The notes under the pieces are model-generated. The model was given only the letters and a program-made list of their open reading frames with translations, had not been told where the DNA came from and ran no database searches. A DNA stretch of 64,000 nt, taken from positions 1-64,000 of IMG/VR virus record IMGVR_UViG_3300007734_000748. The stretch is one strand, 5' to 3'. Below are positions 8,308 through 58,072 of this stretch, one piece after another. The translations under genes were made by a program, and so were the position numbers. Origin of the DNA: a virus. Numbering within the stretch: position 1 is the stretch's first letter; each line of letters opens with the position of its first letter.

Positions 8308-8338
8308 CCCCGCTAGGGCAACTTAGCGGGGTTTTTTT
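8308..8338 (+). terminator. intrinsic terminator closing the replication operon
   Basis: Stem CCCCGCTA (8308-8315) with TAGCGGGG (8324-8331), 8-nt loop, then seven T. The minus-strand late operon ends in the same place: its last stop codon (TAA, 8339-8337) sits in the T-tract. The hairpin therefore separates two convergent transcription units. Confidence 0.9.
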
Positions 8339-11300: not shown

Positions 11301-14300
11301 GATACGCCCAACGGCATTGGTAAAGGTGTTCCACAACGAGAACGGCGCTGCTTGGTAACGAATCTCCCGCAGCAATGCTTGGAACTCTGGGTTGGTCATA
11401 GCCTCGGACACAAATTCGTGCAGGTCTTGCAGCCCGTACAAATTGTCTTCGCTTAGCCCTTCCAACGACAATATGCCCTTGGCGTGGTTGTACAGCTTGA
11501 CCAGTTGGTCATAGCCTTGCCGCTGGATGTCGTTGACCTTATTTAGTTTACCTGTTGTGGGCGTAGCCGCCATCATGTCGATCAGGCGGGCAAGGGCAGC
11601 GTGGAGCGACTCGTGCAACAGGGTATGGTTGTTGAACTGAGAGGCTTTGTTGCCGCCTTCACGCAGAATAACTTCATCAGTGGCCGGGTCGTACATGCCC
11701 GCCCAAGTGAATTGCTTGTCCAGCAGGGCCGTGGTTTCACCCAGAATTTCACGCTGAGCTTCGTTCTTAAACTCATCGTTCAGTCTATCTACGGCGGACA
11801 GGATACCGCCCAACTTCTTGGAGTTGAGGTCCGCAAGAATTGATTTCTTGGTTGCCGCATCCATAGAGGACACTTCAATCATGTCGGAGAGTGCCCGGAC
11901 CTTGGCGTCCAATGCCTCTTTGTCGGCTTTTTTGCCAGACAGCGGTTCAAGGTGATCGCTGCCCACCACCCTGGATTTGGCGGTAAGTCCAGAGTCCAGC
12001 AAGCGGTTTGCAAGCACAGCGTAGTACGGGTTGTTCTTGGCATCAGCCATTAGCTTCAGCGCACCCTTGAGGTCACCCGTCTTTAGCAAGCTTGCGATGG
12101 CTGGGTTGACCTGTGACAACATTTGCACCACAGGCAAGCCTTTGGCGATGGGCTTAAGTTTTGGTGCTCTTGGAACCTTGACCCCGGTGGTTGTTTCTGC
12201 TTTCTGGAGTTTGGCTTGAACCCGCTCCTTACGCAGCACCTCATACTTGGTGATGGCCTCGCTGAACTTCTTGGCTTCGTTGATGTCGCTTTGAAAATCA
12301 GCCACCATGCTCTTGAAAATGGCCTGCGTCTCGCTGTCAAGATTCTTGTTAACCCAATTACGGAAATCAACGGCGTACTTACCGCCTTCGCCCTCATACA
12401 GCGTGTTGGCAGCAACAGATGCTTTCACATCCTTGTCCACTACGGGCAGCTTGTTAAGCTGCTCTGGCGACAGATCAGGTGCAAGTGCTTCAATCTCGGC
12501 TATGGTTTTGCCGTAACGCTGTGATAGGTATGACTGCCACTGCGCCAAATCAGACGCCGCATCGGCCAGCACCTTACCAAAAGAATTCCTGCGTGGGTTG
12601 TCGATATAGTTTTTCGCCGCCAACAAACCCGCTGACAACTCGTCTTTGTAATTACGCAAGTTGTACAGCATCTTCAAAATTGCTGGCAAGCTGCGGTCGG
12701 TGATGAGGTACTCTTCCTCTACGCTGGCAGTGCTGGGTTTACGAGGCTTGCCTTCGCCAGTTTTACCGTGCACTTTGGTGACCATGCGGGCGATGGTCAC
12801 TTTGGAAATATATATACCTTTTTGTATACGGTCTTTGACCTTGCCCGCCGCACCTTCTTTTGTGCCGGGCAGGATGTCAATGTACTTCTTAATCTGTTCG
12901 TTGAACTCCTCCATCCCACGGCGGGTCGTGAGGTCAGGGAGGTTATGGTTTGTGAAGAACCGTGACTGCGCCGCTGCGCTCATGTTAGGCAAATCATTCA
13001 GTGCTTGCTCAAAGTCAGGCATGCCACCCATACGGCTGGCAATGTACTTCAGCATAGCCCGGACACCCCGGCTATATTCCTGGCCTTTGGCAACAATGTC
13101 GTAACTCAGCATGCGCTTGAGCGCCACGCCTTTTAGAGATTCGTGTTTGCTTTGTTCGCTTTCTGTACCAGACTGGGGCAGGATAGCGTCAAAGAAAGCC
13201 GTAAGAAGCTTGCCCTCTTTGGTCTTGGCCACGTTGGCAATACCCAGATCATTTTCAGCTTTGTCGGCCAGCGTTTGTTCAACATCTTCGGTTGTTTCGG
13301 CGCTTACCCTTTCTGCTTCTTTTTCGGGCTGAGCTTCTTTCTTTTCTGCAACCTGACGGCGTTTGTATACGTCTGCGCGTTCAAACTTTACGTCCTCGCC
13401 GTAGTCAGTGACGAGTTGATCTCGCATGCTCTTGGAGACCTCCGTGCCCGCCTCAACCGGACTCATGCCCGGCTCGGTGATCACGTACGAAATTGCTTTA
13501 CCAACAGGTGCTTTTTCTTCACGCTCGGCTTTGGGCGCAGTTTCTTTGGGTTCCGGTTTTGCGGTAAACACGTCTTCAAACGCTTCACCCGACGTAACTT
13601 CGGTGGGTTCTTTCTTTGGTTCTGCACCAAACAAACTCCTTTGCATACCCTTGCGTTCACCGGACAGCAATGCAATCGCTTGGTCGATCGTAGTGGTCTG
13701 GCGGTCAACGTGTTGCCGGGCTAATGTTTCAACATTGGCAACGGCTTCACCAGCAGGTAGTCCAGGGGCTTTTTGTGAAAGTGCCCAAGTCTTGTCGTAT
13801 ACACCAGCAGCCAAATCCTTCAGGAGTTTGGCCTTGCTTCTCTCAAGCACGCGAACAGCTTCTTCGCGGTCCTGGCCCGCCAACGCCAACGCAGACTCCA
13901 CCCGACGCTCAACACTGGGCCCCTTGGTAAACATTTGCGTTTGCATTCCGCGACGCTGGCCAACTTGTTTGAGAGCGCCACGCCCGTCAAACTTGGGGTC
14001 TACCAAGTTATCTACCAACGTGGGGTCAAGGTTACCCAACAGTGGGCTGTTGATCTGCACAAGCGATTGAAGTATCTTTTCAGCGGCCTCGCGTTTTTCT
14101 TTGACGATAAAGTCAAATCTATTTTCAGGCTTGCTCAACGCGTCAATCCGCGCCCGCAGGTCGTCGTACTGTTCTTTGAACTCACCAAACGATTCGGCAG
14201 GAGCCAACTCTGCGACTGGAGCAGCAGGAGGCGGGGTTGGCCTTGCTGGTTTTGCTGTTGGTTTATTTAACTCAACAATCCCAACTTGTTCTTGTGGCGC

Positions 14301-15725
14301 TTCATCTCGCTGGCCGGTAGTACCTTCTATATATGCCTTAGATTGCGTGAAGGGTTTTTGGCCTTGAACATCAGCGCCTGTCTCCACATCCTCAAACAGG
14401 CCCGGAGGCTCCGCAGACGGGGGTGGAGTAAGGTCGGGTTCACCATATTTGGCAGACACAGTTTGGCCAGAAGCAGGCACACGGGTTGCATACTTCTCGA
14501 CTTCGGTTGGGACTAATGCACTGGGTTGCTGTTCTTCTCTTGCAGCAGCGCCTGCAACATCCGCTCCAGCAGGAACCACTCCAGGGGGTCCAGCTTCTCC
14601 AGGTCCTGCGGAGGGTGGCACTGCACTGGTTGCGCCAGCCAGTGGAGCGCCTTCTCCACCTGTTGTACTGATAGGTTGTCCAACATCGGTTGCTTCCTTC
14701 TCCAGTGTGTCTTTGACCCAAGCTGGGACTTCGGTACGCAATAACGCCTGACCCTCTGGCGTGCGCCTAGCTTGGAATGTTTGGGCCGCACCACTATATG
14801 CGCCCATTGGCCCACCAAGCAAGAGGGCTCCACCTGCGGCTTCCAGATATTCTTTGGCGGCTTCGGGGTCTTTAAATGGATCGAGCGCCAGACCCGCCTG
14901 CCACCGCTCCAACACTTGTTGGGTTACCTCTTGCGGCACTTCAAATGCGATACCTGATGCGGTGCCTTTGGCCACAGCTTTCTTGTATGCGTTGGGTTTG
15001 GTCGCGGCTTCAACAATTTCAAGCGCGGCTTTTTCAGCGGCAGCTTTGCCCTCTATACCAACCAACTGGCCCAGGGGTTTGAAGAACTTAAACCCAAAAA
15101 TGTCCAACGCGGTTTGACCTGCTGCCGCAGTCGTTGCAGTCAGCCGGTTGATGTCTTCATAAACTTGGCCTTTTTTGGCCTGCTCTTCTTTTTGACGGGA
15201 GATGTTGTCTGCGATGTACGAGCCAAGTGCAGTCAACCCGTATGCCGCAGTGCCAATTGCTGCGGCGGGCAGAGCGGCAGGAGCCGCCAATGCTGCACCA
15301 GCACCAGCAACCATGGCAGGGGCCATTGACCCCAAGGACGACCCAGCAACTTCTTTAAATTTATCAACCGTTTTACCCAGCGCAGTGCCATACGCACCTT
15401 GTTTGAACGCGTCGCCAATCTCGCTGAATTCGGTCTGTTTATAAACATCACCAGCTTCTTTTTTGGCCCGTGCCAGTTCATCGGTAGCAGCTTTTTGATC
15501 CCCCAGCCCGGTGAACAACTGCGCTGTTGGTAGGGCTGTGGTAACGCGTTCTTTTAGCGCAGAACCAAAAGACCCGAAGAACCCGCCTGACTCAGTGGGT
15601 TCGGGCTTCGCGGGTTCTCCAACTGGAGTACCACCAAACTGAGAAGCAAGCGCAGCGTAGTCTACGCCTTGCTTAGATGGAGCGGGGACACCCCCAAACT
15701 CGGCTGCAAGTTTGGCGTAGTCCAT
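8337..15725 (-). CDS. giant polyvalent internal virion (ejection) protein with metallopeptidase motif
   Basis: 2462 residues, last gene of the late transcript. The N terminus has two DYAxLAxxFGG repeats, then a hydrophobic Ala/Gly-rich segment (about 120-175) that could insert in membranes. The centre has a zinc-peptidase motif, H1371-E-S-L-H1375. PLMRHGRFW near residue 1725 fits the PLxRFG-type polyvalent-protein domain. The C-terminal third contains membrane-like segments. Such multidomain proteins are packaged and injected with phage DNA, like T7 gp16 or phage DarB-type proteins, to cross the envelope and disarm the host. No transglycosylase domain is evident. TAATG coupling links it to the 637-residue protein upstream. 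Confidence 0.8.
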   Translation of the reverse strand: MDYAKLAAEFGGVPAPSKQGVDYAALASQFGGTPVGEPAKPEPTESGGFFGSFGSALKERVTTALPTAQLFTGLGDQKAATDELARAKKEAGDVYKQTEFSEIGDAFKQGAYGTALGKTVDKFKEVAGSSLGSMAPAMVAGAGAALAAPAALPAAAIGTAAYGLTALGSYIADNISRQKEEQAKKGQVYEDINRLTATTAAAGQTALDIFGFKFFKPLGQLVGIEGKAAAEKAALEIVEAATKPNAYKKAVAKGTASGIAFEVPQEVTQQVLERWQAGLALDPFKDPEAAKEYLEAAGGALLLGGPMGAYSGAAQTFQARRTPEGQALLRTEVPAWVKDTLEKEATDVGQPISTTGGEGAPLAGATSAVPPSAGPGEAGPPGVVPAGADVAGAAAREEQQPSALVPTEVEKYATRVPASGQTVSAKYGEPDLTPPPSAEPPGLFEDVETGADVQGQKPFTQSKAYIEGTTGQRDEAPQEQVGIVELNKPTAKPARPTPPPAAPVAELAPAESFGEFKEQYDDLRARIDALSKPENRFDFIVKEKREAAEKILQSLVQINSPLLGNLDPTLVDNLVDPKFDGRGALKQVGQRRGMQTQMFTKGPSVERRVESALALAGQDREEAVRVLERSKAKLLKDLAAGVYDKTWALSQKAPGLPAGEAVANVETLARQHVDRQTTTIDQAIALLSGERKGMQRSLFGAEPKKEPTEVTSGEAFEDVFTAKPEPKETAPKAEREEKAPVGKAISYVITEPGMSPVEAGTEVSKSMRDQLVTDYGEDVKFERADVYKRRQVAEKKEAQPEKEAERVSAETTEDVEQTLADKAENDLGIANVAKTKEGKLLTAFFDAILPQSGTESEQSKHESLKGVALKRMLSYDIVAKGQEYSRGVRAMLKYIASRMGGMPDFEQALNDLPNMSAAAQSRFFTNHNLPDLTTRRGMEEFNEQIKKYIDILPGTKEGAAGKVKDRIQKGIYISKVTIARMVTKVHGKTGEGKPRKPSTASVEEEYLITDRSLPAILKMLYNLRNYKDELSAGLLAAKNYIDNPRRNSFGKVLADAASDLAQWQSYLSQRYGKTIAEIEALAPDLSPEQLNKLPVVDKDVKASVAANTLYEGEGGKYAVDFRNWVNKNLDSETQAIFKSMVADFQSDINEAKKFSEAITKYEVLRKERVQAKLQKAETTTGVKVPRAPKLKPIAKGLPVVQMLSQVNPAIASLLKTGDLKGALKLMADAKNNPYYAVLANRLLDSGLTAKSRVVGSDHLEPLSGKKADKEALDAKVRALSDMIEVSSMDAATKKSILADLNSKKLGGILSAVDRLNDEFKNEAQREILGETTALLDKQFTWAGMYDPATDEVILREGGNKASQFNNHTLLHESLHAALARLIDMMAATPTTGKLNKVNDIQRQGYDQLVKLYNHAKGILSLEGLSEDNLYGLQDLHEFVSEAMTNPEFQALLREIRYQAAPFSLWNTFTNAVGRIFNIKPNTTDSDVLIEVMKATDAMMAGPMALEGLAPATERKGLTVKGAAKPVPRSLPNTPTSLSNLMSARSWAEVKGSFPILYNSAKASSRPVALGMLTMRQIADLVRNRIPQVNNFIQVAEDFLARKNNILRESGDISKRWERMQSADPNMSRLLAKVMHGATISEVDPDKATTDQRNRNVQLLQDWNQLSPVAKAIYRQVRDFYERRYEEYKGLMNQRVTQMRQLGVSEQTILEIRNEFEKNKRKGPYFPLMRHGRFWYQIGKGKTREYYMFESAGQKEIHMAQRIAQNPELESTVKEGSEFAQQMDLHARESNFLRESFAAIDSANITGANSAAEKQNLKDSIYQTFLANQPERSFRNQFMHRNNVAGYSEDALRNFASSSFHMAYQMARFEHSPNMFSQIEAARIQLKDRIDVNKGYDVKLSRENTELSDYVTEMDRRLKLMLNPTDIGIIPSLLSNIGFIWYLTAPASAIVNILGGMTIGLPTLVGQYVKANPKASYTEATLAALGQMKTAAGQIIATGFNIERGERLRDNRVMFPTLDRTKSMSKTERAAYDRFVADGLIDITAVYDQSGLAASPTESYTGLRHRGMEMLTSLFHNAERFNREVMAMSAFRLAMEKRKDYADKDLAFAESIAEAKDTTNRSMFDYSSPNKPRYFQHPVARVVLQFKQFPQQMTFFLAHNMVNMLKGATPADRREARARFVGTMGMAGIFSGVTGLWGFSTVASIVNAVVNGLADDDEPPFEFELEFANWAVETFGKNVGTMLTRGIGNAAGIDLASRLKLDDMWLRDSRKNQDEVESLQSLLVDLLGPTVGLAVNAAEAVKLYNEGHADRALETIAPAFIKQPIVAARYANEGVNTLRGDPLMEEVGPFYLFMQSLGLRSAELAEIQFYNITIKGQEQAILKERQNLLNLYALAFMANDADTVEKAYDKIDKFNSKNPTVFIPADSMSKSITERLKKSSQTDHGLYIDPKLEGVLRRHTYLD

Positions 15726-48380: not shown

Positions 48381-48409
48381 GGAATTGTCGACAGCGTGTC
48401 GATTATTCC
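48381..48409 (+). promoter_or_regulatory. 29-bp interrupted palindrome, copy 1
   Basis: GGAATTG, TCGACA, spacer GCG, TGTCGA, TTATTCC. Both arm sets pair fully (TCGACA/TGTCGA and GGAAT/ATTCC). It ends 41 bases before ATG 48451. Confidence 0.8.
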
Positions 48410-48450
48410 TGTGCCGATATTGGCAAGCCTCTTAACTTGGAGATTAAATC

Positions 48451-49098
48451 ATGGCTCAGCAAAACTCTGTTGCGATCGCATCGGCCATCGCAGTGCAAAC
48501 CATTGGCGGCGTCCCTGCTGTCGAATTGCAACAAACCATCTTCGCCATTGGTGAAGAAACCTTGGCGGCTGAAACCGCGATGGCTCGCGGCAAAGAAGCG
48601 CTCGATGTGCTCGATTCCAATTTGCATGACATTGTGAAGGGTTTGCCCTACACTGAATTTATGCTGGTGCGCGACTTCCACAAAGCGGGCGCGATTGACA
48701 AGGGCAAATCGGATGACGCGGCGCAGAAAATCTGGGAGCGTCAAATCAATCGGATCGGCTCGACATTTGACTTCGTCAAGCCCAAGTCAGAGTCGAAAGA
48801 CGCTGAGCGCAAAGCGGCGGCAAAGGCGGCTGAGATCGCCAAGCTGGCTGAGTTCGGCGATGGCGAGTTGGATGACCTCAAAGCTGGCTTACTGGCAAAG
48901 GGTGACGCCAAGTCGTTGCGCGAAGCGTTGAAACTCAACAAAGAAATCGAGCGGCGCAATGCTACGGAATTGGAAGCGGCGAAAGCTCAGCGCAAAGCGA
49001 TCAGCGACAAACTGATTGCCCGCGTCAAAGAGTTGACCAAAGCGGGCACGGAAGATGCTGATGCGCTGTTGATCTCGGCTCTGCAAATGCTGAGCTAA
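48451..49098 (+). CDS. hypothetical helical protein, first gene of right early block
   Basis: 215 residues, SD TTGGAG. A globular N terminus (VAIASAIAVQTIGGVPAVEL) is followed by LHDIVKGLPYTEFMLVRDFH, a conserved-looking helix, and then a long Ala/Lys/Glu-rich coiled coil to the C terminus. Repeated alanine and the AEIAKLAEFGDGELDDLKAG segment suggest an oligomeric scaffold. It is transcribed alone: palindrome copy 1 lies upstream and a strong terminator directly downstream. Function unknown. Confidence 0.78.
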   Translation: MAQQNSVAIASAIAVQTIGGVPAVELQQTIFAIGEETLAAETAMARGKEALDVLDSNLHDIVKGLPYTEFMLVRDFHKAGAIDKGKSDDAAQKIWERQINRIGSTFDFVKPKSESKDAERKAAAKAAEIAKLAEFGDGELDDLKAGLLAKGDAKSLREALKLNKEIERRNATELEAAKAQRKAISDKLIARVKELTKAGTEDADALLISALQMLS

Positions 49099-49104
49099 AT
49101 CTTG

Positions 49105-49126
49105 GGGGGCTTCGGCCCCCTTTTTT
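49105..49126 (+). terminator. intrinsic terminator (UUCG loop)
   Basis: GGGGGC-TTCG-GCCCCC followed by TTTTTT, seven bases after the stop of the 215-residue gene. Confidence 0.93.
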
Positions 49127-49197
49127 CTTCGCCCGCGTTGCCCGCTGATCTTCGATCGGCTGGCGGCGCGGGCTTTGAAGCCAGTTCCTGTCCGAGC

Positions 49198-49531
49198 AAC
49201 GGGGTAGCCTATGCTTGCTTATAGGTATCTATCAACTTTGCTGCCCAAAGAACAAGCTGGGCGGGCGGTGTGAACGGGGTAGCCACGCTCTTCTTTGTAT
49301 ACCAGTTCTCTTGGAAACGGGGTAGCCTGGAATAGTCGACAAAGTGTCGGTTTCTCCGGGGCGTCAAGACCGCCTCGACCGCTCGGCAAGTGCCCGGCGG
49401 GTCTAGTTTTCAAAACGGGCGATGCTAACCTGACACAAAAGCCAGAAACGGGCGACGCTTTCCCACGCAAATCCCGCATAGTTTGTTGCCATAAAACCAC
49501 GGCGATACTCTATAAAACCACGGGCGATGCA
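49198..49531 (+). repeat. array of short ACGGGG/ACGGGC direct repeats
   Basis: AACGGGGTAGCC occurs at 49198, 49273 and 49316. The related ACGGGC-GAYGC occurs near 49415, 49448 and 49520, with a shorter ACGGCGATAC at 49499. In one frame these read NGVA and TGDA, which is why a false-looking 110-residue reading frame spans them. No gene is supported here. The pattern recalls repeat-based immunity or sRNA regions of P4-like elements, an inference only. Confidence 0.6.
49329..49357 (+). promoter_or_regulatory. 29-bp interrupted palindrome, copy 2
   Basis: GGAATAG, TCGACA, AAG, TGTCGG, TTTCTCC; two mismatches in pairing. It lies immediately after the third AACGGGGTAGCC repeat, in a region without genes. 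Confidence 0.75.
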
Positions 49532-49693
49532 CCCGCCATTTCCCCCACTCCACCTCGCAACGCCTTCAATAAGCCTGCAGGAAGCCTCTTCTGGAGGGAC
49601 ACATATTGCACAGGTCTCTTACATTAAAAATCCAGCCCGATTTTCGCAAGTCCTTGTTTTTGTTCTCTTTATTTATTTATAATAATAATATAA

Positions 49694-49840
49694 TAATAGA
49701 TGTTATGTGTTGTCGCTATTTTCTGTACCAGTGAGAGGTTCCGTGATTTCCCCCCCGCCAAGCCCGACCACCTCGCCACCCCAACTTTTGACCCCCCTCC
49801 TCTAGGTACAAAAAAGAGCGACAACACATAACATCTATTA
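49694..49840. repeat. 36-nt-arm inverted repeat beside an AT-rich tract
   Basis: Left arm 49694-49729 (TAATAGATGTTATGTG...) is the reverse complement of 49805-49840 with two mismatches. The 75-base centre is pyrimidine-rich. The left arm directly follows an AT-only-like tract (about 49665-49700, TTTATTTATTTATAATAATA...). Candidate replication origin, mobile-element end pair or long hairpin RNA. The whole 49099-49942 gap has no supported gene. Confidence 0.85.
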
Positions 49841-49881
49841 CATTATCCTCAAAAACGGGGTAAACACTAGGGTTTTGGGGC

Positions 49882-49911
49882 TTGATTAAATAAGAGATGT
49901 GTGCATATAAT
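49882..49911 (+). promoter_or_regulatory. sigma70 promoter for the HNH-like gene
   Basis: TTGATT at 49882-49887, 18-base spacer, perfect TATAAT at 49906-49911. Start would fall near 49918, 25 bases before ATG 49943, which has AAAGGA. Confidence 0.8.
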
Positions 49912-49942
49912 GTCCCTCCACAGCACTTTTTAAAGGACCCCT

Positions 49943-50653
49943 ATGTCACGCACGCCCAAGTACAAGAACGCAGACGACCTCTTCGCCAACTGCAGGCAGG
50001 TCAACGACTGCCTCATCTGGCCCCAAACCTCCAGCACCCTCTCCACCCCGACCTTCTCACCCATGTCCACGCTGGCGATGAAGTTCAACACCACCAGCAT
50101 CGTCAGGGTCACCTTCACCCTATGTCGACACATCCCGTCTCGCGGTCGCTTGGTCCGGTGTTGCGATCAACCCTACTGCATCAACCCTTACCACTATGTT
50201 GAAGCCACGGCGATTCGCAAGAAGCGCCTCAAGAACGGACAGCCCAATGCTTTGCTTCCTGATCAGGAAGGTGTCCGCGATCTGATCGCACCATCGGAAG
50301 AGGAACTGCGGGCGATGCGGCCAAAGGACCCCGACTTACTTATCATGCTTGCGAACTCTGCCCTCACAGCGGGCTACGATGGCCGGGGCATCCTCAACGG
50401 GCGCGGCGTGTTCACCGCCCTCAAAGCACCCAAGTACGCCGACCCCAACAAACCGTTGCTTGTCATACGCCGCCGCGAAGAGCCGCCAAAGAAAGCCTCG
50501 ACATTCGTTGACCCAATCACGCCCGAGATGGAGACAGAAAAAGAAGGCTTCCTTGGCCCGTACTTCGACATGCTCATGGCCAAGAAGAAAGAAAAGGAGC
50601 GAATTGCGGCCCAGGGTTATCCCGACCCCATAGATGGCCGAAATGACCGTTGA
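49943..50653 (+). CDS. HNH-like zinc-finger endonuclease homologue
   Basis: 236 residues, SD AAAGGA. The first 90 residues have CRQVNDCLIWP, then CRHIPSRGRLVRCCDQPYCI and NPYHYVEAT. This C..P.C.NP.H cluster is the treble-clef zinc site of phage HNH nucleases, although the usual first His is a Cys (RCCDQ). The C-terminal 130 residues are basic, charged and unrelated to known folds. It may be a nuclease or only a DNA-binding derivative. Confidence 0.68.
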   Translation: MSRTPKYKNADDLFANCRQVNDCLIWPQTSSTLSTPTFSPMSTLAMKFNTTSIVRVTFTLCRHIPSRGRLVRCCDQPYCINPYHYVEATAIRKKRLKNGQPNALLPDQEGVRDLIAPSEEELRAMRPKDPDLLIMLANSALTAGYDGRGILNGRGVFTALKAPKYADPNKPLLVIRRREEPPKKASTFVDPITPEMETEKEGFLGPYFDMLMAKKKEKERIAAQGYPDPIDGRNDR

Positions 50654-50685
50654 GCGGAATCAGGTGCCAAAACGCGGAGAGGGAC

Positions 50686-50714
50686 TTGACAAAGTCTAAT
50701 TAGTGTGTTAGAAT
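50686..50714 (+). promoter_or_regulatory. sigma70 promoter of the MoxR-VWA block
   Basis: TTGACA at 50686-50691, 17-base spacer, TAGAAT at 50709-50714. It shares ACTTGACAAAGTCTAA with the 3575 promoter, including dyad GACTT/AAGTC across the -35. Palindrome copy 3 lies about 50 bases downstream, in the leader. Confidence 0.85.
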
Positions 50715-50767
50715 GTACTTTGTACATTTGGGATAGCGCACGGATGTACAGGGGTTTTTCTGCCCTC

Positions 50768-50796
50768 GGAGTTTTCGACATGGTGTCGATTTCTCC
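50768..50796 (+). promoter_or_regulatory. 29-bp interrupted palindrome, copy 3
   Basis: GGAGTTT, TCGACA, TGG, TGTCGA, TTTCTCC. The outer arms are GGAG with CTCC, that is, both changed relative to copy 1. It lies in the leader of the 50686 transcript, 27 bases before ATG 50824. Confidence 0.8.
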
Positions 50797-50823
50797 AGTC
50801 CCTCAACCTTTATTGGAGTTTGT

Positions 50824-50910
50824 ATGAATCTCTCAGACCGCGTAACACGCGTTGTGTTTCTGCTGGCACTTGTGGTGCTGGCCCTTGATCTCATGGTGTG
50901 GCGGGCATGA
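50824..50910 (+). CDS. 28-residue membrane micro-protein
   Basis: MNLSDRVTRVVFLLALVVLA then LDLMVWRA: a basic start and one membrane helix. SD TTGGAG precedes it, and TGA overlaps the next ATG. First gene of the 50686 transcript. Translation looks likely because of the ribosome site and coupling; function unknown. Confidence 0.65.
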   Translation: MNLSDRVTRVVFLLALVVLALDLMVWRA

Positions 50911-51182
50911 CTCCCCATACTAGAGAATCAGTTGACGCTGTGGCAGCACGCGTCGACTACGACTGGCGCATGTGTCCCCGTTGCGGGGACGATGTGCATG
51001 TAGAGCGTTGGAACCTCGGTTTCAAACTCTGCTTATTCTGTGGCCAAGAGGCCGCAGAGGCTGATCGCGCATCCTGGTGCGTAGTGCAAACATACGGCAA
51101 GGGGCCGTATATGCTGGTGACCCAAGCGTCTGCACCCCAGACGCTGAAAGACACCAATCAGAAAAACACCCGTTCGGAGTAA
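50907..51182 (+). CDS. small zinc-ribbon protein
   Basis: 91 residues from ATG 50907 (ATGA overlap); an in-frame GTG at 50898 is less likely. MCPRCGDDVHVERWNLGFKL then CLFCGQEA forms a CxxC...CxxC zinc ribbon, with a flexible tail. Such ribbons bind nucleic acid or protein partners. Followed by palindrome copy 4. Confidence 0.72.
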   Translation: MTPHTRESVDAVAARVDYDWRMCPRCGDDVHVERWNLGFKLCLFCGQEAAEADRASWCVVQTYGKGPYMLVTQASAPQTLKDTNQKNTRSE

Positions 51183-51204
51183 TCGACACGGTGTCGATTT
51201 CTCC
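51176..51204 (+). promoter_or_regulatory. 29-bp interrupted palindrome, copy 4
   Basis: GGAGTAA, TCGACA, CGG, TGTCGA, TTTCTCC; GGAG/CTCC outer pairing. Starts in the end of the zinc-ribbon gene and stops 41 bases before ATG 51246. Confidence 0.8.
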
Positions 51205-51245
51205 TGTATCTCACTATATAAACCTTCACTTTCAAGGAAACGAAA

Positions 51246-52322
51246 ATGTCAGACATTAACTTCAACCGCCGCGTGGACCATGACGAGGCCGTGGCCATTC
51301 TCCTCAATTCGGGTGGCAACTCCGTGCACCTGCGGGGCGAGCCGGGCGTGGGCAAGACGGCCATTCAGGATGTGCTGGTCGCCAAGACCGGATACCACAA
51401 GGTCTACATTGACGGGCCTAACACCGATGTGGGTCAAGCGGGCATGCCCATCCCCAACCACGACAAGCGCATCTTGGACTTCTACCCAGCGGGCAGTTTC
51501 AAACTGCACCTGAACGAGCCGTGCGTGATCATGATTGACGAGTGGACCAAGACCGACGACTATGTCCGCAATACCCTGCACCCGTTGTTGCACGAGCGTC
51601 GCCTTGGCGACTACAACCTGCACCCCGACACCATCGTGTTCACCACGGGCAACATGGACGGCGATGGCGTGGGTGACTCGGTCAAGAAGCACACCGTCAA
51701 CCGCCAGACATGGCTCACATACATGAAACCGACTGCGGCCAAGTGGTTGGTGTGGGCGGGCAACGCGGACATTGCGCCAGAGGTTATGGCCTGGGTCAAG
51801 GAGTACGAGCACTGCATGCACAGCTACATGGACGGCGGGCAGAAAGACAACCCGTATATCTTCAACCCAACCAATGCGGCGCAGACCAGCTTCGTGTCGC
51901 CGCGCTCGCTGGAGAAGGCGTCACGCTGGGTGAAGGTGCGCAATCAGTTGACAGAGAACAGCTTGATTGCCTGTCTTGACGGCACACTGGGTATCGCAGG
52001 CAGTCGTGACTTGCAGGCGTACATCAGCTTGTCCGATCAACTCCCGACCCGTGAGGCGATTGAGAACTCGCCCGAATCGGTGGTCATGCCCACCAGCCCC
52101 GCCGCCTTGTGCATCTTGGCGTTCAAGGGCGTGGCCGTTGTGACCCGTGACACCTACGCGGCGTGGATGAGGTTCGTTCGGCGCATGCCCAAAGAGACCC
52201 AAGCTGTATTCATTAACAGCTTACTGGAGGTGCGTGAGAAGAAGCAGTGGGCCATGTCTCACCCCTCGTTCGTCACCTGGGCCCGCGAGAACCAGTACAT
52301 GTTTGCTGGCCTCAAGGGATAA
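51246..52322 (+). CDS. MoxR-type AAA+ ATPase
   Basis: 358 residues, SD AAGGAAACG. Walker A GEPGVGKT (31-38), pore/substrate loop GQAGMPIPNH, Walker B VIMIDEW (94-99), sensor 1 VFTTGN (131-136). The layout is that of MoxR/CobS-like AAA+ chaperones, which form hexamers and work with VWA-domain partners to remodel a target or insert metal. Its VWA partner is encoded three genes on. CobS-like phage proteins are known in T4-like cyanophages. Confidence 0.87.
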   Translation: MSDINFNRRVDHDEAVAILLNSGGNSVHLRGEPGVGKTAIQDVLVAKTGYHKVYIDGPNTDVGQAGMPIPNHDKRILDFYPAGSFKLHLNEPCVIMIDEWTKTDDYVRNTLHPLLHERRLGDYNLHPDTIVFTTGNMDGDGVGDSVKKHTVNRQTWLTYMKPTAAKWLVWAGNADIAPEVMAWVKEYEHCMHSYMDGGQKDNPYIFNPTNAAQTSFVSPRSLEKASRWVKVRNQLTENSLIACLDGTLGIAGSRDLQAYISLSDQLPTREAIENSPESVVMPTSPAALCILAFKGVAVVTRDTYAAWMRFVRRMPKETQAVFINSLLEVREKKQWAMSHPSFVTWARENQYMFAGLKG

Positions 52323-52345
52323 ATCGACAACTTGTCTAAAACTCC
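52317..52345 (+). promoter_or_regulatory. 29-bp interrupted palindrome, copy 5 (degenerate)
   Basis: GGATAAA, TCGACA, ACT, TGTCTA, AAACTCC. Starts in the stop region of the AAA+ gene, ends ten bases before ATG 52356. Its CTCC is directly followed by GGAG, the ribosome site of the next gene. Weakest copy of the family. Confidence 0.6.
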
Positions 52346-52355
52346 GGAGAAACAA

Positions 52356-52634
52356 ATGACTAAAGTAAAGAAAGCATCCTTCAACGAAGTGTATGCAAGC
52401 TGGAAGATTCTGCGTAGCGGGTTTGACCGCATGGAGAAGGATATTCTCATCCTCATGCGTCACGCCGATGCGACACCCGAGCAACTGATGGAGGCTCATG
52501 CTCTGTATCAGGATTCGTACAAACGCATATGCGCCATGCAGGACAAGCTGATTGAGAGATCAGCGGGCTCGTTCATGCTGGACAGGTACTTCAACACGCC
52601 TGTGTCACTGGCTGAACCGAGGGAGACTGTATGA
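52356..52634 (+). CDS. small helical hypothetical protein
   Basis: 92 residues from ATG 52356 behind CCGGAGAAACAA (an upstream TTG at 52332 lies in the palindrome). Predicted helical bundle: FNEVYASWKILRSGFDRMEK; EQLMEAHALYQDSYKRICAM. Ends at the ATGA start of the next gene. May belong to the AAA+ / VWA complex by position only. Confidence 0.72.
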   Translation: MTKVKKASFNEVYASWKILRSGFDRMEKDILILMRHADATPEQLMEAHALYQDSYKRICAMQDKLIERSAGSFMLDRYFNTPVSLAEPRETV

Positions 52635-52840
52635 CTGACACCGAAACACTACTGGTGCTGGGGAACTGCGTGATGGTGGGGCTCTATGCCTACGAGCGGG
52701 CGAGGCTGTCCTTCTTCAAGCGAGCCCTTATCGCGTTAATGGAAGCGGTTCAAGAAGCTGCCGACAAAAAAGGTTCGTTCACCCGAACGACCGATGGAAG
52801 TATTCAATTCAAGGAGATCAAAAATGCTGGTAATAAGTAA
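52631..52840 (+). CDS. small protein with hydrophobic N terminus
   Basis: 69 residues. TLLVLGNCVMVGLYAYERAR may be a membrane helix, followed by an amphipathic helix and a polar tail. ATGA overlap with the preceding gene; its end overlaps the VWA gene's ribosome site and start. Function unknown. Confidence 0.68.
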   Translation: MTDTETLLVLGNCVMVGLYAYERARLSFFKRALIALMEAVQEAADKKGSFTRTTDGSIQFKEIKNAGNK

Positions 52841-54113
52841 GCCGACGGCCAAGCCCAAGCTGGCCGCAGAGAAGCGCATTGAGGTGGTGCATGTGTCCCT
52901 CATGCAGGACAAGCGGTTCGCCCTGTTCGCTGGCCTGTTCATGGTGGGCAAGACGAGCGTGGATGACACGACCCCCACTGCCAGGACCAACGGGCGTGAC
53001 GCTACCTACGGGCGGGCGTTCGTGGACTCGCTGACTGACAAGGAGTTAGCCTTTCTTGTCATGCACGAGAACATGCACAAGTGTTACCGCCATCTCACTA
53101 CATGGCGTAACCTGTACGACGACAACCATTCGTTGGCCAACGTCGCATGTGATCATGTCATCAACCTCCAGCTTGAGGCGATGGACCCCAACGAGACAAT
53201 GCTCGTGCATCCCCGTGACAAGGTGACGGGCAAGCGGATGGGTGCGCACGACCCACGCTTCACGGACATGGATGCGCGGCAGGTCTACGACATTCTCAAG
53301 GAAGAGTGCAAGGGCGGGCGTAAAGGGCGCGGCGGTGGCGGCGAGCCTTCCGATGGGCAGGGCGAGCCAGGGGATGGGAATGATCGACAAGGTGTCGATG
53401 GTTCCGGGCTTGACGAGCACGATTGGGAAGGTGCACAGGACGGGCTTAGCGAGGGCGAGAAGAAACAGCTTGAGCGTGACATCGACCAAGCCCTGCGCCA
53501 AGGCGGCATCTACGCGGGCAAGATGGGTGGACAAATGTCCCGTGAGATCGGTGAGTTGCTCACACCCAGGGTTGACTGGCGTGAGGTGGTGCGGGTGTTT
53601 GTCAAGACACACTTGCGCGATCGTCAGGCTCCGTCATGGCGCAAGGCGCACCGCAACTATCTGTGGCAGGACATCATCCTACCCAGCGTGATAGGTAAGC
53701 GGGTCAAGCATCTTGTGCTGGCGATGGATACTTCTGGCTCTGTGGTAGGCGATCTGCTCACCATGTTCCTGAGCGAGTTCAATAAGGTCGTAACGGATAC
53801 GAATCCCGAGCGGGTTGATGTACTGTACTGGGACACCGATGTCGCAGGGCATGAGACCTACAAGGGTGCAGACAAGAAGTCCATCGTGCATCAGACCAAC
53901 CCCAAGGGTGGGGGTGGCACGGACCCTGACTGCGTACCTGTGTTCATGCAAGAGCATGAGCTAACGCCTGATGTGCTTGTGATTCTCTCTGATGGGTACA
54001 TGAGCAGTAATCCGGCGAAGTGGGCGGGCGTGACATGCCCTGTCCTGTGGTGCATTATTGGTAGCAAAAGCTTTACCCCTCCAGTGGGTCAGCTTGTCAA
54101 CATTAAGGATTGA
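52824..54113 (+). CDS. VWA-domain putative metallopeptidase (DUF2201-like)
   Basis: 429 residues from ATG 52824 behind AAGGAGATCAAAA. N-terminal zinc-peptidase-like motif H81-E-N-M-H85; a Gly/acidic linker (KGRGGGGEPSDGQGEPGDGN); C-terminal VWA domain with MIDAS start D302-T-S-G-S306. This matches the DUF2201 architecture, which pairs with MoxR-type ATPases. The ATPase encoded upstream probably loads or drives it. Substrate unknown. Palindrome copy 6 lies within the linker-coding region. Confidence 0.85.
   Translation: MLVISKPTAKPKLAAEKRIEVVHVSLMQDKRFALFAGLFMVGKTSVDDTTPTARTNGRDATYGRAFVDSLTDKELAFLVMHENMHKCYRHLTTWRNLYDDNHSLANVACDHVINLQLEAMDPNETMLVHPRDKVTGKRMGAHDPRFTDMDARQVYDILKEECKGGRKGRGGGGEPSDGQGEPGDGNDRQGVDGSGLDEHDWEGAQDGLSEGEKKQLERDIDQALRQGGIYAGKMGGQMSREIGELLTPRVDWREVVRVFVKTHLRDRQAPSWRKAHRNYLWQDIILPSVIGKRVKHLVLAMDTSGSVVGDLLTMFLSEFNKVVTDTNPERVDVLYWDTDVAGHETYKGADKKSIVHQTNPKGGGGTDPDCVPVFMQEHELTPDVLVILSDGYMSSNPAKWAGVTCPVLWCIIGSKSFTPPVGQLVNIKD
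53387..53415 (+). promoter_or_regulatory. 29-bp interrupted palindrome, copy 6 (inside the VWA gene)
   Basis: GGAATGA, TCGACA, AGG, TGTCGA, TGGTTCC; GGAA/TTCC outer pairing. It is the only copy well inside a coding region, in the low-complexity linker that tolerates sequence constraint. Confidence 0.75.
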
Positions 54114-54115
54114 TC

Positions 54116-54367
54116 ATGGACGATGACAAAGTAATACTGAAGATCAGTGGCAACTTGTTTTATCTGGACATGACCGAGGCTCTCGCGGTTGCGAAGGTCT
54201 TGTGTAGCGTGTCGCGCATCAAGGAGATGCGGATAGCCGAGGATTGGGGGAGTGTGATGAGCGGCCCTGAACTTGATTCGGTGAGTATCCAGCCCATGAC
54301 CGCGCACTATTGGTTGCAGTTGGAGACCAACCGCAAGATCAAGGAAGAAAGAGAGGCGAAAAAATGA
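54116..54367 (+). CDS. small hypothetical protein
   Basis: 83 residues from ATG 54116, behind AAGGATTGATC. DKVILKISGNLFYLDMTEAL opens an alpha/beta fold; the end is a charged helix (NRKIKEEREAKK). Coupled by ATGA to the next gene. No family recognised. Confidence 0.72.
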   Translation: MDDDKVILKISGNLFYLDMTEALAVAKVLCSVSRIKEMRIAEDWGSVMSGPELDSVSIQPMTAHYWLQLETNRKIKEEREAKK

Positions 54368-54519
54368 CACCGGGTAACTACAACATCAACCTCAACAGGG
54401 AGACCTTTGAGTTGTTGCAGAAGGTGCGCGATGACCTTGGCGTGAAGCTGGGGTTTGAGCCTACCTACGGGCAGGTGGTACGCCATCTGATTAGTATGTA
54501 CAACACAGCAGTGGGGTAA
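54364..54519 (+). CDS. ribbon-helix-helix DNA-binding protein
   Basis: 51 residues from ATG 54364 (ATGA overlap; the longer in-frame start at 54310 lies in the preceding gene). A strand YNINLNRETF is followed by two helices (ELLQKVRDDLGVKL; TYGQVVRHLISMY), the pattern of Arc/MetJ-type regulators that bind palindromic operators as dimers. The only such gene within the palindrome-bearing region, so a natural candidate regulator. Confidence 0.68.
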   Translation: MTPGNYNINLNRETFELLQKVRDDLGVKLGFEPTYGQVVRHLISMYNTAVG

Positions 54520-54525
54520 ATCGTC

Positions 54526-54732
54526 ATGCCTTTAGTTGTTTTAGGTAAAGGGATAGTTGACTATCAACGACCCAACGAACAGGAACTTCCCAAGATTGGG
54601 AGTCTTGTCTGCATGAATGAAATCGTGCAGTCTCAGCATCGGCGTGCGCAGATAGCTCAGCTATCTATCAGCATGTCTCTTATTCAAGAAGTGTATCTTC
54701 ACAAGGAGAATCAAAATGGCTTACGGGTATAG
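54526..54732 (+). CDS. small hypothetical protein
   Basis: 68 residues: PLVVLGKGIVDYQRPNEQEL, then LPKIGSLVCMNEIVQSQHRR and a helical end. Weak ribosome site (GGGGTAAATCGTC), so probably translated by coupling. Overlaps the next start by 17 bases. No domain recognised. Confidence 0.6.
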   Translation: MPLVVLGKGIVDYQRPNEQELPKIGSLVCMNEIVQSQHRRAQIAQLSISMSLIQEVYLHKENQNGLRV

Positions 54733-55789
54733 CAGTTACAACACAGCGGGCGTGCCGCACCTCAAGAGTTTCTCGCAAGCGAAGCACAGGTACGAGCAGA
54801 CCAAGCCCATCAAAGGGCATCCACAAAGCGTTAGGCCATTCGGGGTACGCCGTTACCACAAGATGGCGAGCATCTCGATGCCCGACGCAGACACGGTCAA
54901 CCTGGAGTACTACGGGAAAACTCTCGTGCAGTGGCGGTCGGACAACACCTACACGGTCTATCGTCCGGTGCATGCCAGCGCGTATGTACCAGACAACACC
55001 AGCCAGTATGTGCCCGAGGGGGCATTCGGTTGGAAGCATGGCGAAATATATGTGACGCTGAAGGGTGGCAAAGAGTACTTCTTCCCAGATGGAGGCAAGC
55101 TGGAGTTTCAAGTGACGGGCAACCACCACCTGTTGCTCAACAAGCCTGTGGCCTACGCTACCCGCACGAACAGGAATGTGGCGATGAAGATCATGGCTAA
55201 GTACCAGCCCTTCATGGATTGGTTGCAGGTCGTGGCGGGCGTGAAGCGTCATGTCGACATGGATGAAGCGCAGGAAGCGTGCGATCGACTTCGGCGGCTT
55301 GCCGATGTTCCCTCTGAGGAATCCTTTGACAAAGCAATACGAAACACTGAACCACGCTCTACCTCTGAAGCATGGACGCTGTATGGCGAGCGGCGTAACG
55401 CTTGCTACCTCCCGTTCCGGGGGGCCAATTCGCGCTATTCCTACACCCACTTCCACCGCCCAAGCTGTGAGTTGATTGACTCGTGGCTTACGGACGAGAA
55501 CGCGGAGAATTGGGTGCAAGCTATGTATGTCATCGCACGGCATCAGGGTCAGCACTTGCACTTTAGGGATGTAGGTGGCGCGTACAGGCACACGAAAACT
55601 ATTCTGCCCGTTAACAAGGCAGTGGAGTTTCTCAGGGCGTTGACTTCATTCCTGCACAGGGACGAGGTGTTCACCCGTGAGCGTCTACCTGACGGGCAGT
55701 TACCCACCAGGACCAACCTCAACTTCTTTCACGAGATTCACATTCGCAACCTCGGAACAATCGACAAAGTGTCGAAGATTCCTAACTAA
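54716..55789 (+). CDS. hypothetical protein of the MoxR-VWA block
   Basis: 357 residues, SD AAGGAGAATCAAA. The first 170 residues are beta-rich with aromatic repeats (YYGKTLVQWRSDNTYTVYRP; VYRPVHASAYVPDNTSQYVP; GGKEYFFPDGGKLEFQVTGN); the second half is helical (AMKIMAKYQPFMDWLQVVAG; DEAQEACDRLRRLADVPSEE). No catalytic pattern is obvious. It is part of a contiguous set with the AAA+, VWA and DUF3150-like genes. Its last codons are palindrome copy 7. Confidence 0.75.
   Translation: MAYGYSSYNTAGVPHLKSFSQAKHRYEQTKPIKGHPQSVRPFGVRRYHKMASISMPDADTVNLEYYGKTLVQWRSDNTYTVYRPVHASAYVPDNTSQYVPEGAFGWKHGEIYVTLKGGKEYFFPDGGKLEFQVTGNHHLLLNKPVAYATRTNRNVAMKIMAKYQPFMDWLQVVAGVKRHVDMDEAQEACDRLRRLADVPSEESFDKAIRNTEPRSTSEAWTLYGERRNACYLPFRGANSRYSYTHFHRPSCELIDSWLTDENAENWVQAMYVIARHQGQHLHFRDVGGAYRHTKTILPVNKAVEFLRALTSFLHRDEVFTRERLPDGQLPTRTNLNFFHEIHIRNLGTIDKVSKIPN
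55754..55782 (+). promoter_or_regulatory. 29-bp interrupted palindrome, copy 7
   Basis: GGAACAA, TCGACA, AAG, TGTCGA, AGATTCC; GGAA/TTCC outer pairing. It encodes the C terminus GTIDKVSKIP of the 357-residue protein and stops 19 bases before ATG 55802. Confidence 0.8.
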
Positions 55790-55801
55790 CTGGAGAACAC
55801 C

Positions 55802-56686
55802 ATGACACAGAATACGATCATTCACACCGCCCCGGCGGTATCCCTTGCATCCATGGCCATGCTGGTCGAACTGCGTATCAGCACATGGACAGCGCGTAAG
55901 CGTGACAACGAGACCACGATGGAGGTCAACACTTCCAAGGAAGCTGACCAAGACTCTGGCTCTGTCTACAAGTATCTGATGGCGGGCAGTGACCACCTCA
56001 AGAAGATTGAGAAGTACGCGGCCAAGTGCCGTGCGTGGAACGGGACGCAGACCCTGCCTTGGATGAAGGGTATCGGGCTGTTACCGATGGAGAATTTCTT
56101 TCACTATCGGGGTCAGCTCGGTACGATGGAATCCAATTTCTACGCATTGGTTGACGCTTTTATCGCGGAGTACCCCAAACTCAAGAACGATCAGGCGTTC
56201 AGGCTGGGCAAGTACTACCGCGCTGAAGAGTTTCCCGATGTGGAGACCTTGCCGCGCAGGTTCAAGTTTGAGTACAACTTTCTCCCTGTTCCAGAGAAGG
56301 GGGATTTCCGCATCCGCTGCGAAGAAAAAGTCCGCGCTGATCTGGCTGAGCAGTACGAGAAGATGTACAACGCCAAGCTGGCTGACGCTATGCGTGACCC
56401 ATGGGAGAGACTGCATGCACTGTTGACCAAGATGAGCACCACTCTGACCGACAGGGATGATGGCGAGCGGAAGATATTCCGCGACTCAATCGTGACCAAT
56501 GCGGCAGGTATGTGTGACCTGCTGACGCGGCTCAATGTGACGAAGGACCCAGAGCTTGAGAAGGCTCGCCGTATGCTGGAGCAAGCGATAGCGGGCTTTG
56601 ACCCGAAGGACCTGCGTGGCAGTGACGGCGCTCGTGTCGAGTTGAAGTCCAGCGTTGATGACATCCTCAGCAAATTTAACTGGTAA
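55802..56686 (+). CDS. DUF3150-like protein of the MoxR-VWA block
   Basis: 294 residues, SD CTGGAGAACACC. The order of segments (LVELRISTWTARKRDNE; TLPWMKGIGLLPMENFF; FKFEYNFLPVPEKGDFRIR; FRDSIVTNAAGMCDLLTRLN; DLRGSDGARVELKSSVDDIL) fits the DUF3150 family, which in other phages lies beside MoxR/CobS-type ATPases. It is likely a substrate adaptor or structural partner of the ATPase/VWA pair. The name is from memory of the family pattern, not a search. Confidence 0.72.
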   Translation: MTQNTIIHTAPAVSLASMAMLVELRISTWTARKRDNETTMEVNTSKEADQDSGSVYKYLMAGSDHLKKIEKYAAKCRAWNGTQTLPWMKGIGLLPMENFFHYRGQLGTMESNFYALVDAFIAEYPKLKNDQAFRLGKYYRAEEFPDVETLPRRFKFEYNFLPVPEKGDFRIRCEEKVRADLAEQYEKMYNAKLADAMRDPWERLHALLTKMSTTLTDRDDGERKIFRDSIVTNAAGMCDLLTRLNVTKDPELEKARRMLEQAIAGFDPKDLRGSDGARVELKSSVDDILSKFNW

Positions 56687-56693
56687 GGAAAAA

Positions 56694-57587
56694 ATGATGC
56701 AACTAGCAAACGTAATTATCAAAGACGGGTATGTCATGGACCCCATGCTGGCAGAGTTGGTAACTCCGCTGGCCTTGGCCATGCCATCCTATACATTCAC
56801 CACGCGGACCATGGACGACACACAGTTTGTGCACTACTCGTACGCCGTCACCTTAAAGGCTCGTTCGGTGCAAGCACCAGAGGGCAAGAGGTTTATGCGT
56901 AAACTGTTTGTGTTCTGTGAAGACGAGAACATGGGGGAGTTGTTGGTGGACTCTAGGTACAGCCGTAGTAGATCGGGCTCTGATTGGGTGTGGGAGATCA
57001 GGTGCTGGCGCATAGAAAACGAGCGAGGCTCGCGTAACACCACCAAGACTACCAAACTTGATGTAGCCAAGCGTGTGGTCAAGAAATACTTCTTGCCCAA
57101 AGGTTTGGACGAGGTGCTGGCAAATTCTGAAACTGTCCTGTACGACTTCGATCGGGCTTTAGGTCGTCTGGCGCATGACATATCACGCAGTAATCTGCTT
57201 AAGAATCTTTCGGACTTGCAGGAGTATGTCTATCATCAGTTGATGGGGCAGGAGATACCTATCCAGCTTAAACAGCGGGTGGAAACTAAGATGACTTCGG
57301 ACAAGTACCATAAGGCAATGGGTGAATTTAATCTGGCCGCGTCTATGGATGTCAGGAAAGACAGGCTACTTGTCATACGGCACAAGGGCGGGTACTTGTA
57401 CAAGGAACCTGTGGTTCGGGGGTCGGCCCTGACCGAAATGGTTACTATGTTCCAGTCGTTTGAAGAACTACCTAGTCTGTGGCAAGACAGGCTGGCGGTG
57501 CTACAACTGATGGAAGATGAAGAGGTCGTGCGTGATGTAGGCTACAGGCACAACGACACGCACTTCGTGATACTAACTAACCCATAA
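56694..57587 (+). CDS. hypothetical protein, end of the MoxR-VWA operon
   Basis: 297 residues from ATG 56694 (or 56697) behind AAGGAAAAA. N-terminal alpha/beta part with VHYSYAVTLKARSVQAPEGK, helical middle and KDRLLVIRHKGGYLYKEPVV near the end. Not recognised. A strong terminator follows, so it closes the transcript that starts at 50686. Confidence 0.75.
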   Translation: MMQLANVIIKDGYVMDPMLAELVTPLALAMPSYTFTTRTMDDTQFVHYSYAVTLKARSVQAPEGKRFMRKLFVFCEDENMGELLVDSRYSRSRSGSDWVWEIRCWRIENERGSRNTTKTTKLDVAKRVVKKYFLPKGLDEVLANSETVLYDFDRALGRLAHDISRSNLLKNLSDLQEYVYHQLMGQEIPIQLKQRVETKMTSDKYHKAMGEFNLAASMDVRKDRLLVIRHKGGYLYKEPVVRGSALTEMVTMFQSFEELPSLWQDRLAVLQLMEDEEVVRDVGYRHNDTHFVILTNP

Positions 57588-57600
57588 CCTGCTACTCTTT

Positions 57601-57625
57601 GACCCGCTTCGGCGGGTCTTTTTTT
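57601..57625 (+). terminator. intrinsic terminator (UUCG loop)
   Basis: GACCCGC-TTCG-GCGGGTC followed by seven T, 13 bases after the stop of the preceding gene. Separates the MoxR-VWA operon from the polymerase operon. Confidence 0.95.
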
Positions 57626-57629
57626 GCCC

Positions 57630-57658
57630 GGAATTATCGACAACGTGTCGAAGATTCC
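57630..57658 (+). promoter_or_regulatory. 29-bp interrupted palindrome, copy 8
   Basis: GGAATTA, TCGACA, ACG, TGTCGA, AGATTCC; fully paired GGAAT/ATTCC and TCGACA/TGTCGA. Lies between the terminator and the next promoter, about 47 bases upstream of the -35. Confidence 0.8.
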
Positions 57659-57704: not shown

Positions 57705-57733
57705 TTGACATAGTCCAACAAGCCCCGTATATT
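57705..57733 (+). promoter_or_regulatory. sigma70 promoter, apparently leaderless
   Basis: TTGACA at 57705-57710, 17-base spacer, TATATT at 57728-57733. The ATG of the VRR-NUC gene is at 57740, where transcription should begin, so the mRNA would have little or no leader. It shares ACTTGACA-(T)-AGTC-(C)-AA with the other two promoters of this type. Confidence 0.82.
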
Positions 57734-57739
57734 CTGGGC

Positions 57740-58072
57740 ATGGCATTAACTCCAGAACGAAAAGTAAAAGACCTAGTGGTGGCCCAGCTTAAAGCTCGTG
57801 GCGCGTACTACTTCTTCCCCGCAAGCAACGGCTTCGGGCGCATGGGCATACCCGACATCATCGTGTGTCACCATGGTAGCTTCATCGCCATAGAATGTAA
57901 AGCGGGTAAGGGAAAAACCACACGGCTCCAAGACCGTGAATTGGATAACATAAATAAAGCGGGCGGGGTGGCCATAGTCATCAACGAGACCAACATCGCA
58001 TTGGTCACCCGTATTCTCACTTCAAAGGAAACAAACCATGCTGGAAAAGCTACTGCGCCTCCCACTCCCTGA
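57740..58072 (+). CDS. VRR-NUC domain nuclease
   Basis: 110 residues from ATG 57740; the longer open frame from 57599 runs through the terminator and promoter. Core: VKDLVVAQLKARGAYYFFPA, then GRMGIPDIIVCHHGSFIAIE and CKAG, giving D39, E52 and K54 of a PD-(D/E)XK fold. Stand-alone VRR-NUC proteins act as structure-specific nucleases, for example on Holliday junctions, so it may process replication intermediates before packaging. Confidence 0.88.
   Translation: MALTPERKVKDLVVAQLKARGAYYFFPASNGFGRMGIPDIIVCHHGSFIAIECKAGKGKTTRLQDRELDNINKAGGVAIVINETNIALVTRILTSKETNHAGKATAPPTP

Follow-up and report, generated by a model that had tools for sequence, protein, structure and literature searches.

Dispersed symmetric 29-bp sites in a phage gene block diversify in step with a candidate DNA-binding regulator

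The window analysed here is a 64,000-nucleotide (nt) stretch of viral DNA, positions 1 to 64,000 of the IMG/VR record IMGVR_UViG_3300007734_000748. It carries eight copies of a 29-base-pair (bp) interrupted palindrome, all within one block of genes that encodes an AAA ATPase, a VWA protein and a DUF3150-like protein and that opens with w48451, a gene for a protein of 215 amino acids (aa). Comparison with related phages showed that the sites of a genome change together, and that their type follows the w48451 protein. To judge from these sequence comparisons, the sites look like docking or operator sites of w48451, a predicted DNA-binding regulator without a known family. The features of the block, including its open reading frames (ORFs), are as follows.

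48381..48409, no strand: site 1 (slot A), 29-bp dyad preceding w48451; motif match, slot conserved in relatives
48451..49098, plus strand: w48451, the gene that opens the block; its 215-aa product, which site type follows in preference to the backbone, is the candidate DNA-binding regulator cognate to the sites
49104..49121, plus strand: terminator-like hairpin with a T run, after w48451
49329..49357, no strand: site 2 (slot B2), in a conserved non-coding region; motif match
50686..50714, plus strand: sigma70-like promoter TTGACA-17-TAGAAT, with site 3 at about +47
50768..50796, no strand: site 3 (slot C), ahead of a small ORF; motif match, relatives
51176..51204, no strand: site 4 (slot D), 41 nt ahead of the AAA start codon; motif match
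51246..52322, plus strand: AAA ATPase, phrog_1297
52317..52345, no strand: site 5 (slot E), degraded copy overlapping the AAA stop codon; motif match, relatives
52824..54113, plus strand: DUF2201 metallopeptidase/VWA protein, phrog_1314
53377..53405, no strand: site 6 (slot F), within the linker of the VWA gene; type-appropriate site in every genome checked
54364..54519, plus strand: ribbon-helix-helix (RHH)-like protein, 51 aa; excluded as specificity determinant
54716..55789, plus strand: 357-aa block protein of unknown family
55754..55782, no strand: site 7 (slot H), within the final codons of 54716–55789, 19 nt ahead of the DUF3150-like start; motif match
55802..56686, plus strand: DUF3150-like protein; Pfam match below the curated cut-off
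57601..57618, plus strand: Rho-independent-terminator-like hairpin immediately upstream of site 8
57630..57658, no strand: site 8 (slot I), between terminator and promoter; motif match, relatives
57705..57733, plus strand: sigma70-like promoter TTGACA-17-TATATT of the next unit

The motif has the layout GGAN-N3-TCGACA-N3-TGTCGA-N3-NTCC, and within the window it is confined to the 9.3 kb from 48381 to 57658. A search for the core TCGACANNNTGTCGA at up to 2 mismatches returned 10 matches, compared with 2.06 expected from shuffled sequence. Eight of these lie in the block and have outer GGAN/NTCC arms three bases away; the remaining two, at 11567 and 63919, have 2 mismatches each and lack matching outer arms. 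When at least 15 of the 18 fixed bases were required, exactly the eight copies were recovered in the window and none in 20 dinucleotide shuffles. The chance that eight random positions would share one 9.3-kb stretch is about 1 in 1e5, and a scan of the whole 64,768-base record found no perfect core besides those already counted. From these data we conclude that the eight copies are real and non-random.

A first-pass annotation of this DNA had listed eight copies with these arms and none elsewhere, and both statements hold, as does its account of the inner arms: six copies are perfect, copy 2 is one base off, and copy 5 is degraded, with one base off and a broken outer pair. Its start for copy 6, 53387, was in error and should read 53377. 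It had also placed most copies between genes and copy 6 inside a gene. The latter is correct, and copy 2 does lie in a long non-coding stretch, but copies 5 and 7 do not lie wholly between genes, so that three copies touch coding sequence: the AAA stop codon (copy 5), the VWA gene (copy 6) and the last residues of the ORF at 54716–55789 (copy 7). Most sites lie within transcribed units, and none stands at a fixed distance from a start signal.

The same annotation had described all copies as facing the direction of transcription, a claim that rests on a single spacer base and fails. The third spacer base is G in 7 of the 8 window copies; once relatives are included, it is G in only 58 of 144 distinct sites, and 45 of the 144 have the mirror-image equivalent, a C as first spacer base. 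The site is thus a symmetric dyad, and the apparent direction is a peculiarity of the eight window copies rather than a property of the element.

An exact-pattern scan for the 18 fixed bases was carried out across 2.9 million IMG/VR viral contigs. Of the 50 stretches recovered, 49 encode relatives of the block in the window or of the adjoining TerL; the exception (L039) has a single site and no homologue. Long relatives have about 6–10 copies each, in one cluster. The copies occupy conserved slots, some of which are left unfilled in some genomes: before and after w48451, in the non-coding stretch, before the small gene that precedes AAA, before AAA itself, across the AAA stop codon, within the linker of the VWA gene, in or ahead of the genes that lead up to the DUF3150-like gene, and between the terminator and the next promoter. 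The same scan of 84,980 bacterial and archaeal genomes (257 Gb) gave three single hits, which is about the number expected by chance for 18 fixed bases, and use of the motif by a host or prophage was therefore rejected. Thus neither of two outcomes that would have counted against the finding was obtained: the motif was not equally dense in random or host sequence, and it was not missing from the same positions in relatives.

The nearest isolated relatives by TerL are DSL-LC04, HTVC027P and 023Pt_psg01; the AAA/VWA block was not seen in the annotation of the stretches of these three that were read. The AAA and DUF2201/VWA proteins (51246–54113) are related to proteins of N4-like phages (phrog_1297 and phrog_1314). 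Small genes located after sites 1–3 and at 52356–52634 differ among relatives whose flanking genes are about 97% identical, and the sites thus border variable gene slots.

Motif-blind searches, by the AAA protein and then by w48451, showed that the element exists in several forms. Relatives found with the AAA protein have other palindromes in the same slots, with the same 29-bp architecture of four-base outer arms, three-base spacers and inner arms. In addition to type I (outer/inner arms GGAA/TCGACA), this search defined types II (GAAC/CCGACA), III (GAAC/TCGAA) and IV (GGAA/CCCTT), and the search with w48451 contributed type V (GAAR/CCGAC) as well as a distant clade whose centre is four bases long, not three. 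Sites are alike inside one genome, and between groups all sites change together. Such a concerted change of all sites in a genome argues for a trans-acting, sequence-specific factor whose specificity has changed. In the type II genome L080, the sites at 4013, 5135, 7658 and 7937 mix TCGACA and CCGACA inner arms; this genome may be an intermediate between specificities.

The copy inside the VWA gene was present in every genome checked, each time with that genome's own type. As this stretch is read in different frames and yields different peptides (e.g. GDGNDRQGVDGSG, GEQTDGESGS and GTKRQSVDMF), selection acts on the nucleic acid and not on the protein.

We then asked which protein follows the site type. 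One genome, G026 (L085), has type II sites and a type II w48451 on a type III-like backbone. Its TerL, AAA, RHH-like and DUF3150-like proteins are 88–94%, 90–92%, 98% and 97% identical to those of type III genomes, while its w48451 is only 40–44% identical to the type III proteins and scores 0.67 to that of the type II genome L080 and 0.62 to that of L093. In trees of 27 genomes, the type II label changed twice on w48451, compared with five times on both AAA and TerL. Approximately unbiased (AU) tests rejected a type II clade on AAA (p 4e-10 for all seven genomes, 4e-87 for the core five) and on TerL (p 1e-5 and 3e-6), but not on w48451 (p 0.63), for which the tree holding type II together was the better one. 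Placement of L085 with type III on w48451 was also rejected (p 6e-4). Over all genomes, w48451 came first in partial correlation (-0.74); as TerL came second at -0.64, the case rests on the discordant genomes and the trees. Two segments of the protein show a finer correspondence. In residues 108–132 the type IV protein resembles type I (0.63) more than type II (0.43) or III (0.50), and types IV and I share the GGAA outer arm, though the type IV backbone is nearer to II/III; residues 87–107 diverge in step with the inner hexamer. Taken together, comparative sequence strongly supports the pairing of the site with w48451.

The RHH-like protein at 54364–54519 was considered as the regulator and rejected: it is 96–98% identical between type II and type III genomes and cannot set the specificity. 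The regulator is thus probably not among the obvious small DNA-binding proteins of the phage. Most of the relatives checked have the RHH-like gene in this position, and it does not follow site type.

We consider it somewhat probable that the 29-bp dyads are double-stranded DNA operators through which w48451 represses or roadblocks the AAA/VWA/DUF3150 block. A symmetric w48451 oligomer, probably dimeric and with two contact segments in each subunit, would read the inner hexamer and the outer GGAN arm. Binding at site 1, directly upstream of w48451, could bring about autoregulation, and protein bound at the remaining sites, which number about one per gene boundary with one more inside a gene, would repress promoters and block the passage of RNA polymerase. 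The level of the AAA/VWA/DUF3150 block would be set in this way, or the block would be shut off later in infection. A symmetric protein–DNA complex in a transcribed region can act as proposed, as LacI stops RNA polymerase in engineered tests (PMC4132739); LacI was studied with engineered sites, and here the array is natural. The suggestion of the first-pass annotation that one regulator serves the AAA+/VWA block and its neighbours gains support from the conserved positions of the sites, their concerted change of specificity and their tracking of one protein.

Several observations weigh against this interpretation. The w48451 of L079, which has type II sites, is only 42–48% identical to other type II proteins, and at the loose cut-off used the type counts of L079 and L080 overlap with type III. 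The candidates compared in G026 were the genes on its sequenced stretch. The w48451 sequence matched no PHROG, Pfam or PDB sequence entry, and no significant fold match was returned by Foldseek. Its AlphaFold2 model is all-helical, with a predicted local distance difference test score (pLDDT) of 85, but the predicted template modelling score (pTM) was only 0.46, so that global confidence is no better than middling; a helix-turn-helix is possible at about residues 67–106, as read off the secondary structure of the model. Moreover, the cumulative GC-skew minimum lies at about 48–52 kb, at the start of the block, and sequence does not separate repression from DNA organisation.

Because of this skew minimum, the main rival is a role as centromere-like or origin-proximal sites, in which w48451 would organise, partition or mark replicating DNA, as in parS/ParB, phage N15 or KorB, and gene control would be secondary. 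One cluster of sites near an origin-like feature, with a spacing of 0.4–2.4 kb, tolerance of sites inside genes and a copy (site 2) in a conserved non-coding stretch would all suit such a role. However, a ParA-type ATPase (PF13614) was absent from eight records, including that of the window, and no ParB family appeared among the Pfam matches of 32 w48451 orthologues (other genes were not searched specifically for ParB). The sites also prefer the boundaries between genes of a single operon block, a preference that segregation would not call for, and the skew minimum coincides with a divergent transcription boundary as well. We regard this role as unlikely. Less probable again is an RNA element, in which each site would form an mRNA hairpin (4-bp and 6-bp stems, a 3x3 internal loop and a 3-nt loop) for RNase III processing or for translational repression by an RNA-binding protein. 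Many copies do lie 10–41 nt ahead of start codons. In a covariation test with letters shuffled among the sites of the same genome, complementarity of outer pair 4 was slightly above the shuffle (142 vs 132.6, p 0.0035), and that of spacer pairs 5–7 was below it (61 vs 83, 53 vs 77 and 88 vs 101). This avoidance of pairing is what an internal loop would show, and as the deficit could reflect a required internal loop, it does not by itself exclude RNA. On the other hand, the variable inner pairs 8, 11 and 13 showed no compensation, and the ratio of G-U to A-C mismatches in the stems (35:27) was no higher than in the unpaired spacers (93:62). An excess of sense-strand G-U pairs seen in a first count was dropped, since unpaired positions gave the same ratio. 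DNA is favoured over RNA because site 8 falls in the gap between a terminator and the promoter that follows it, and because the sequence itself, and not just its pairing, is uniform within a genome.

The remaining two explanations appear to us more doubtful still. The sites might be promoter or activator boxes from which a phage polymerase, as with the hairpin promoters of N4, or an activator initiates transcription of the following gene. Their regular placement ahead of genes and the N4-like relatives of the AAA and VWA genes would fit, but the site is symmetric, copies overlap a stop codon and occur inside genes, and the sole giant protein (2462 aa) matches LPD39/DarB-like families and not RNA polymerase. 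Furthermore, 141 sites showed no conserved column at a fixed downstream distance, and the sites are thus not promoter elements; boxes of this kind are very improbable. Promoters of the N4 hairpin type, which the 6-bp stem, 3-nt loop and N4-like genes had brought to mind, were rejected on the symmetry and the missing fixed downstream element. Least probable of all, by a small step, are recombination or cassette-boundary sequences at which small accessory genes are exchanged. Of 35 left edges of gene-content differences, 11 had a site no more than 60 nt away, compared with 3.0 at random, but this enrichment is confounded because the differences and the sites both lie between genes. Only 4 of the 35 right edges did, eight records yielded no tyrosine integrase or resolvase, and exchange would leave the in-gene site and the concerted change of type unexplained.

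The operator interpretation places the sites beside several known systems. The likeness to the stoperators of mycobacteriophage L5 seen in the first-pass annotation is apt for the layout and for co-diversification with a cognate protein, and not for the symmetry, as L5 sites are asymmetric and oriented. In cluster A phages such as L5 and Bxb1, the stoperator consensus varies from one subcluster to another in parallel with the divergence of the repressor (PMC6550527), and the sites, of about 13 bp, are asymmetric, fail when reversed and are bound by a two-domain monomer (PMC9283540). Here too many dispersed copies, often between genes, are found (8 in the window, about 6–10 in long relatives), and motif divergence tracks the putative regulator. 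Unlike the cluster A sites, which are spread over a temperate genome, those described here are 29-bp symmetric elements in one 9.3-kb block of a phage in which no integrase was found, and w48451 is unrelated to the L5 Rep-family repressor by sequence or fold search. The SPbeta repeated element (SPBRE) was likewise found first by sequence and later assigned to the master regulator MrpR (PMC10516654). It is also a dispersed phage element, but its motif is 15 bp and MrpR has a tyrosine-recombinase fold and maintains lysogeny, whereas the w48451 model is all-helical and PF00589 is absent. Operators of KorB are dispersed palindromes, and the present sites resemble them in being served by one (putative) protein; unlike KorB, w48451 has no ParB-family match and no ParA was found. 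The hairpin promoters of the N4 virion RNA polymerase are directional, with promoter sequence at a fixed distance from the start, unlike the present symmetric sites, which lack a conserved downstream column and occur alongside a 2462-aa protein without a virion RNA polymerase match. KorB itself, from plasmid RK2, is a DNA-sliding clamp of the ParB family that silences genes (PMC11790492).

Tyrosine integrase (PF00589), resolvase (PF00239) and PF13614 were not found in eight records, which may be incomplete, and other routes of maintenance exist. The related HTVC027P has been described as obligately lytic (PMC12753301). Given these two observations, lysogenic immunity is not an obvious use of the sites. 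The matched but different protein/site pairs of related phages nevertheless look like rival immunity systems. We tentatively suggest, at slightly less than even confidence, that this apparently virulent clade has a new family of DNA-binding regulators whose dispersed symmetric operators of 29 bp form several specificity groups that are incompatible with one another, as in heteroimmune phages. If so, the clade would have an immunity-like system that works without lysogeny and consists of symmetric roadblock operators, in which all sites of a genome switch with the protein. Dispersed operators as such are known, worked out mainly in temperate phages and plasmids; the protein family and the symmetric architecture appear to be new, and they occur in a clade of lake phages without a detected integrase or resolvase. 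With at least four specificity types on one fixed architecture, the clade lends itself to studying how the specificity of a protein shifts along with that of eight or more scattered sites, and which residues recognise which bases. The pairing also offers a handle on the AAA/VWA/DUF3150 gene set, part of which also occurs in N4-like phages.

Further features of the window were noted. Around site 2, positions 49180–49430 form a conserved non-coding stretch, CCAGTTCC...AACGGGGTAGCC ... CTCGNCAAGTG, with repeated words like GGGGTAGCC and GGGCGATGC. It is possibly an origin or a structured RNA; no Rfam family matched anywhere in the window, this stretch included. The 2462-aa protein, encoded at 8337–15725, has LPD39 and DarB-like antirestriction matches and aligns to relatives only in part. 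Both sigma70-like promoters, at 50686–50714 and 57705–57733, are strong and have TTGACANAGTC around the -35 element; this short inverted repeat might serve as a second operator. At 57705–57744 the -10 element ends 6 nt ahead of an ATG (ORF start MALTPERKVKD), which suggests a leaderless mRNA.

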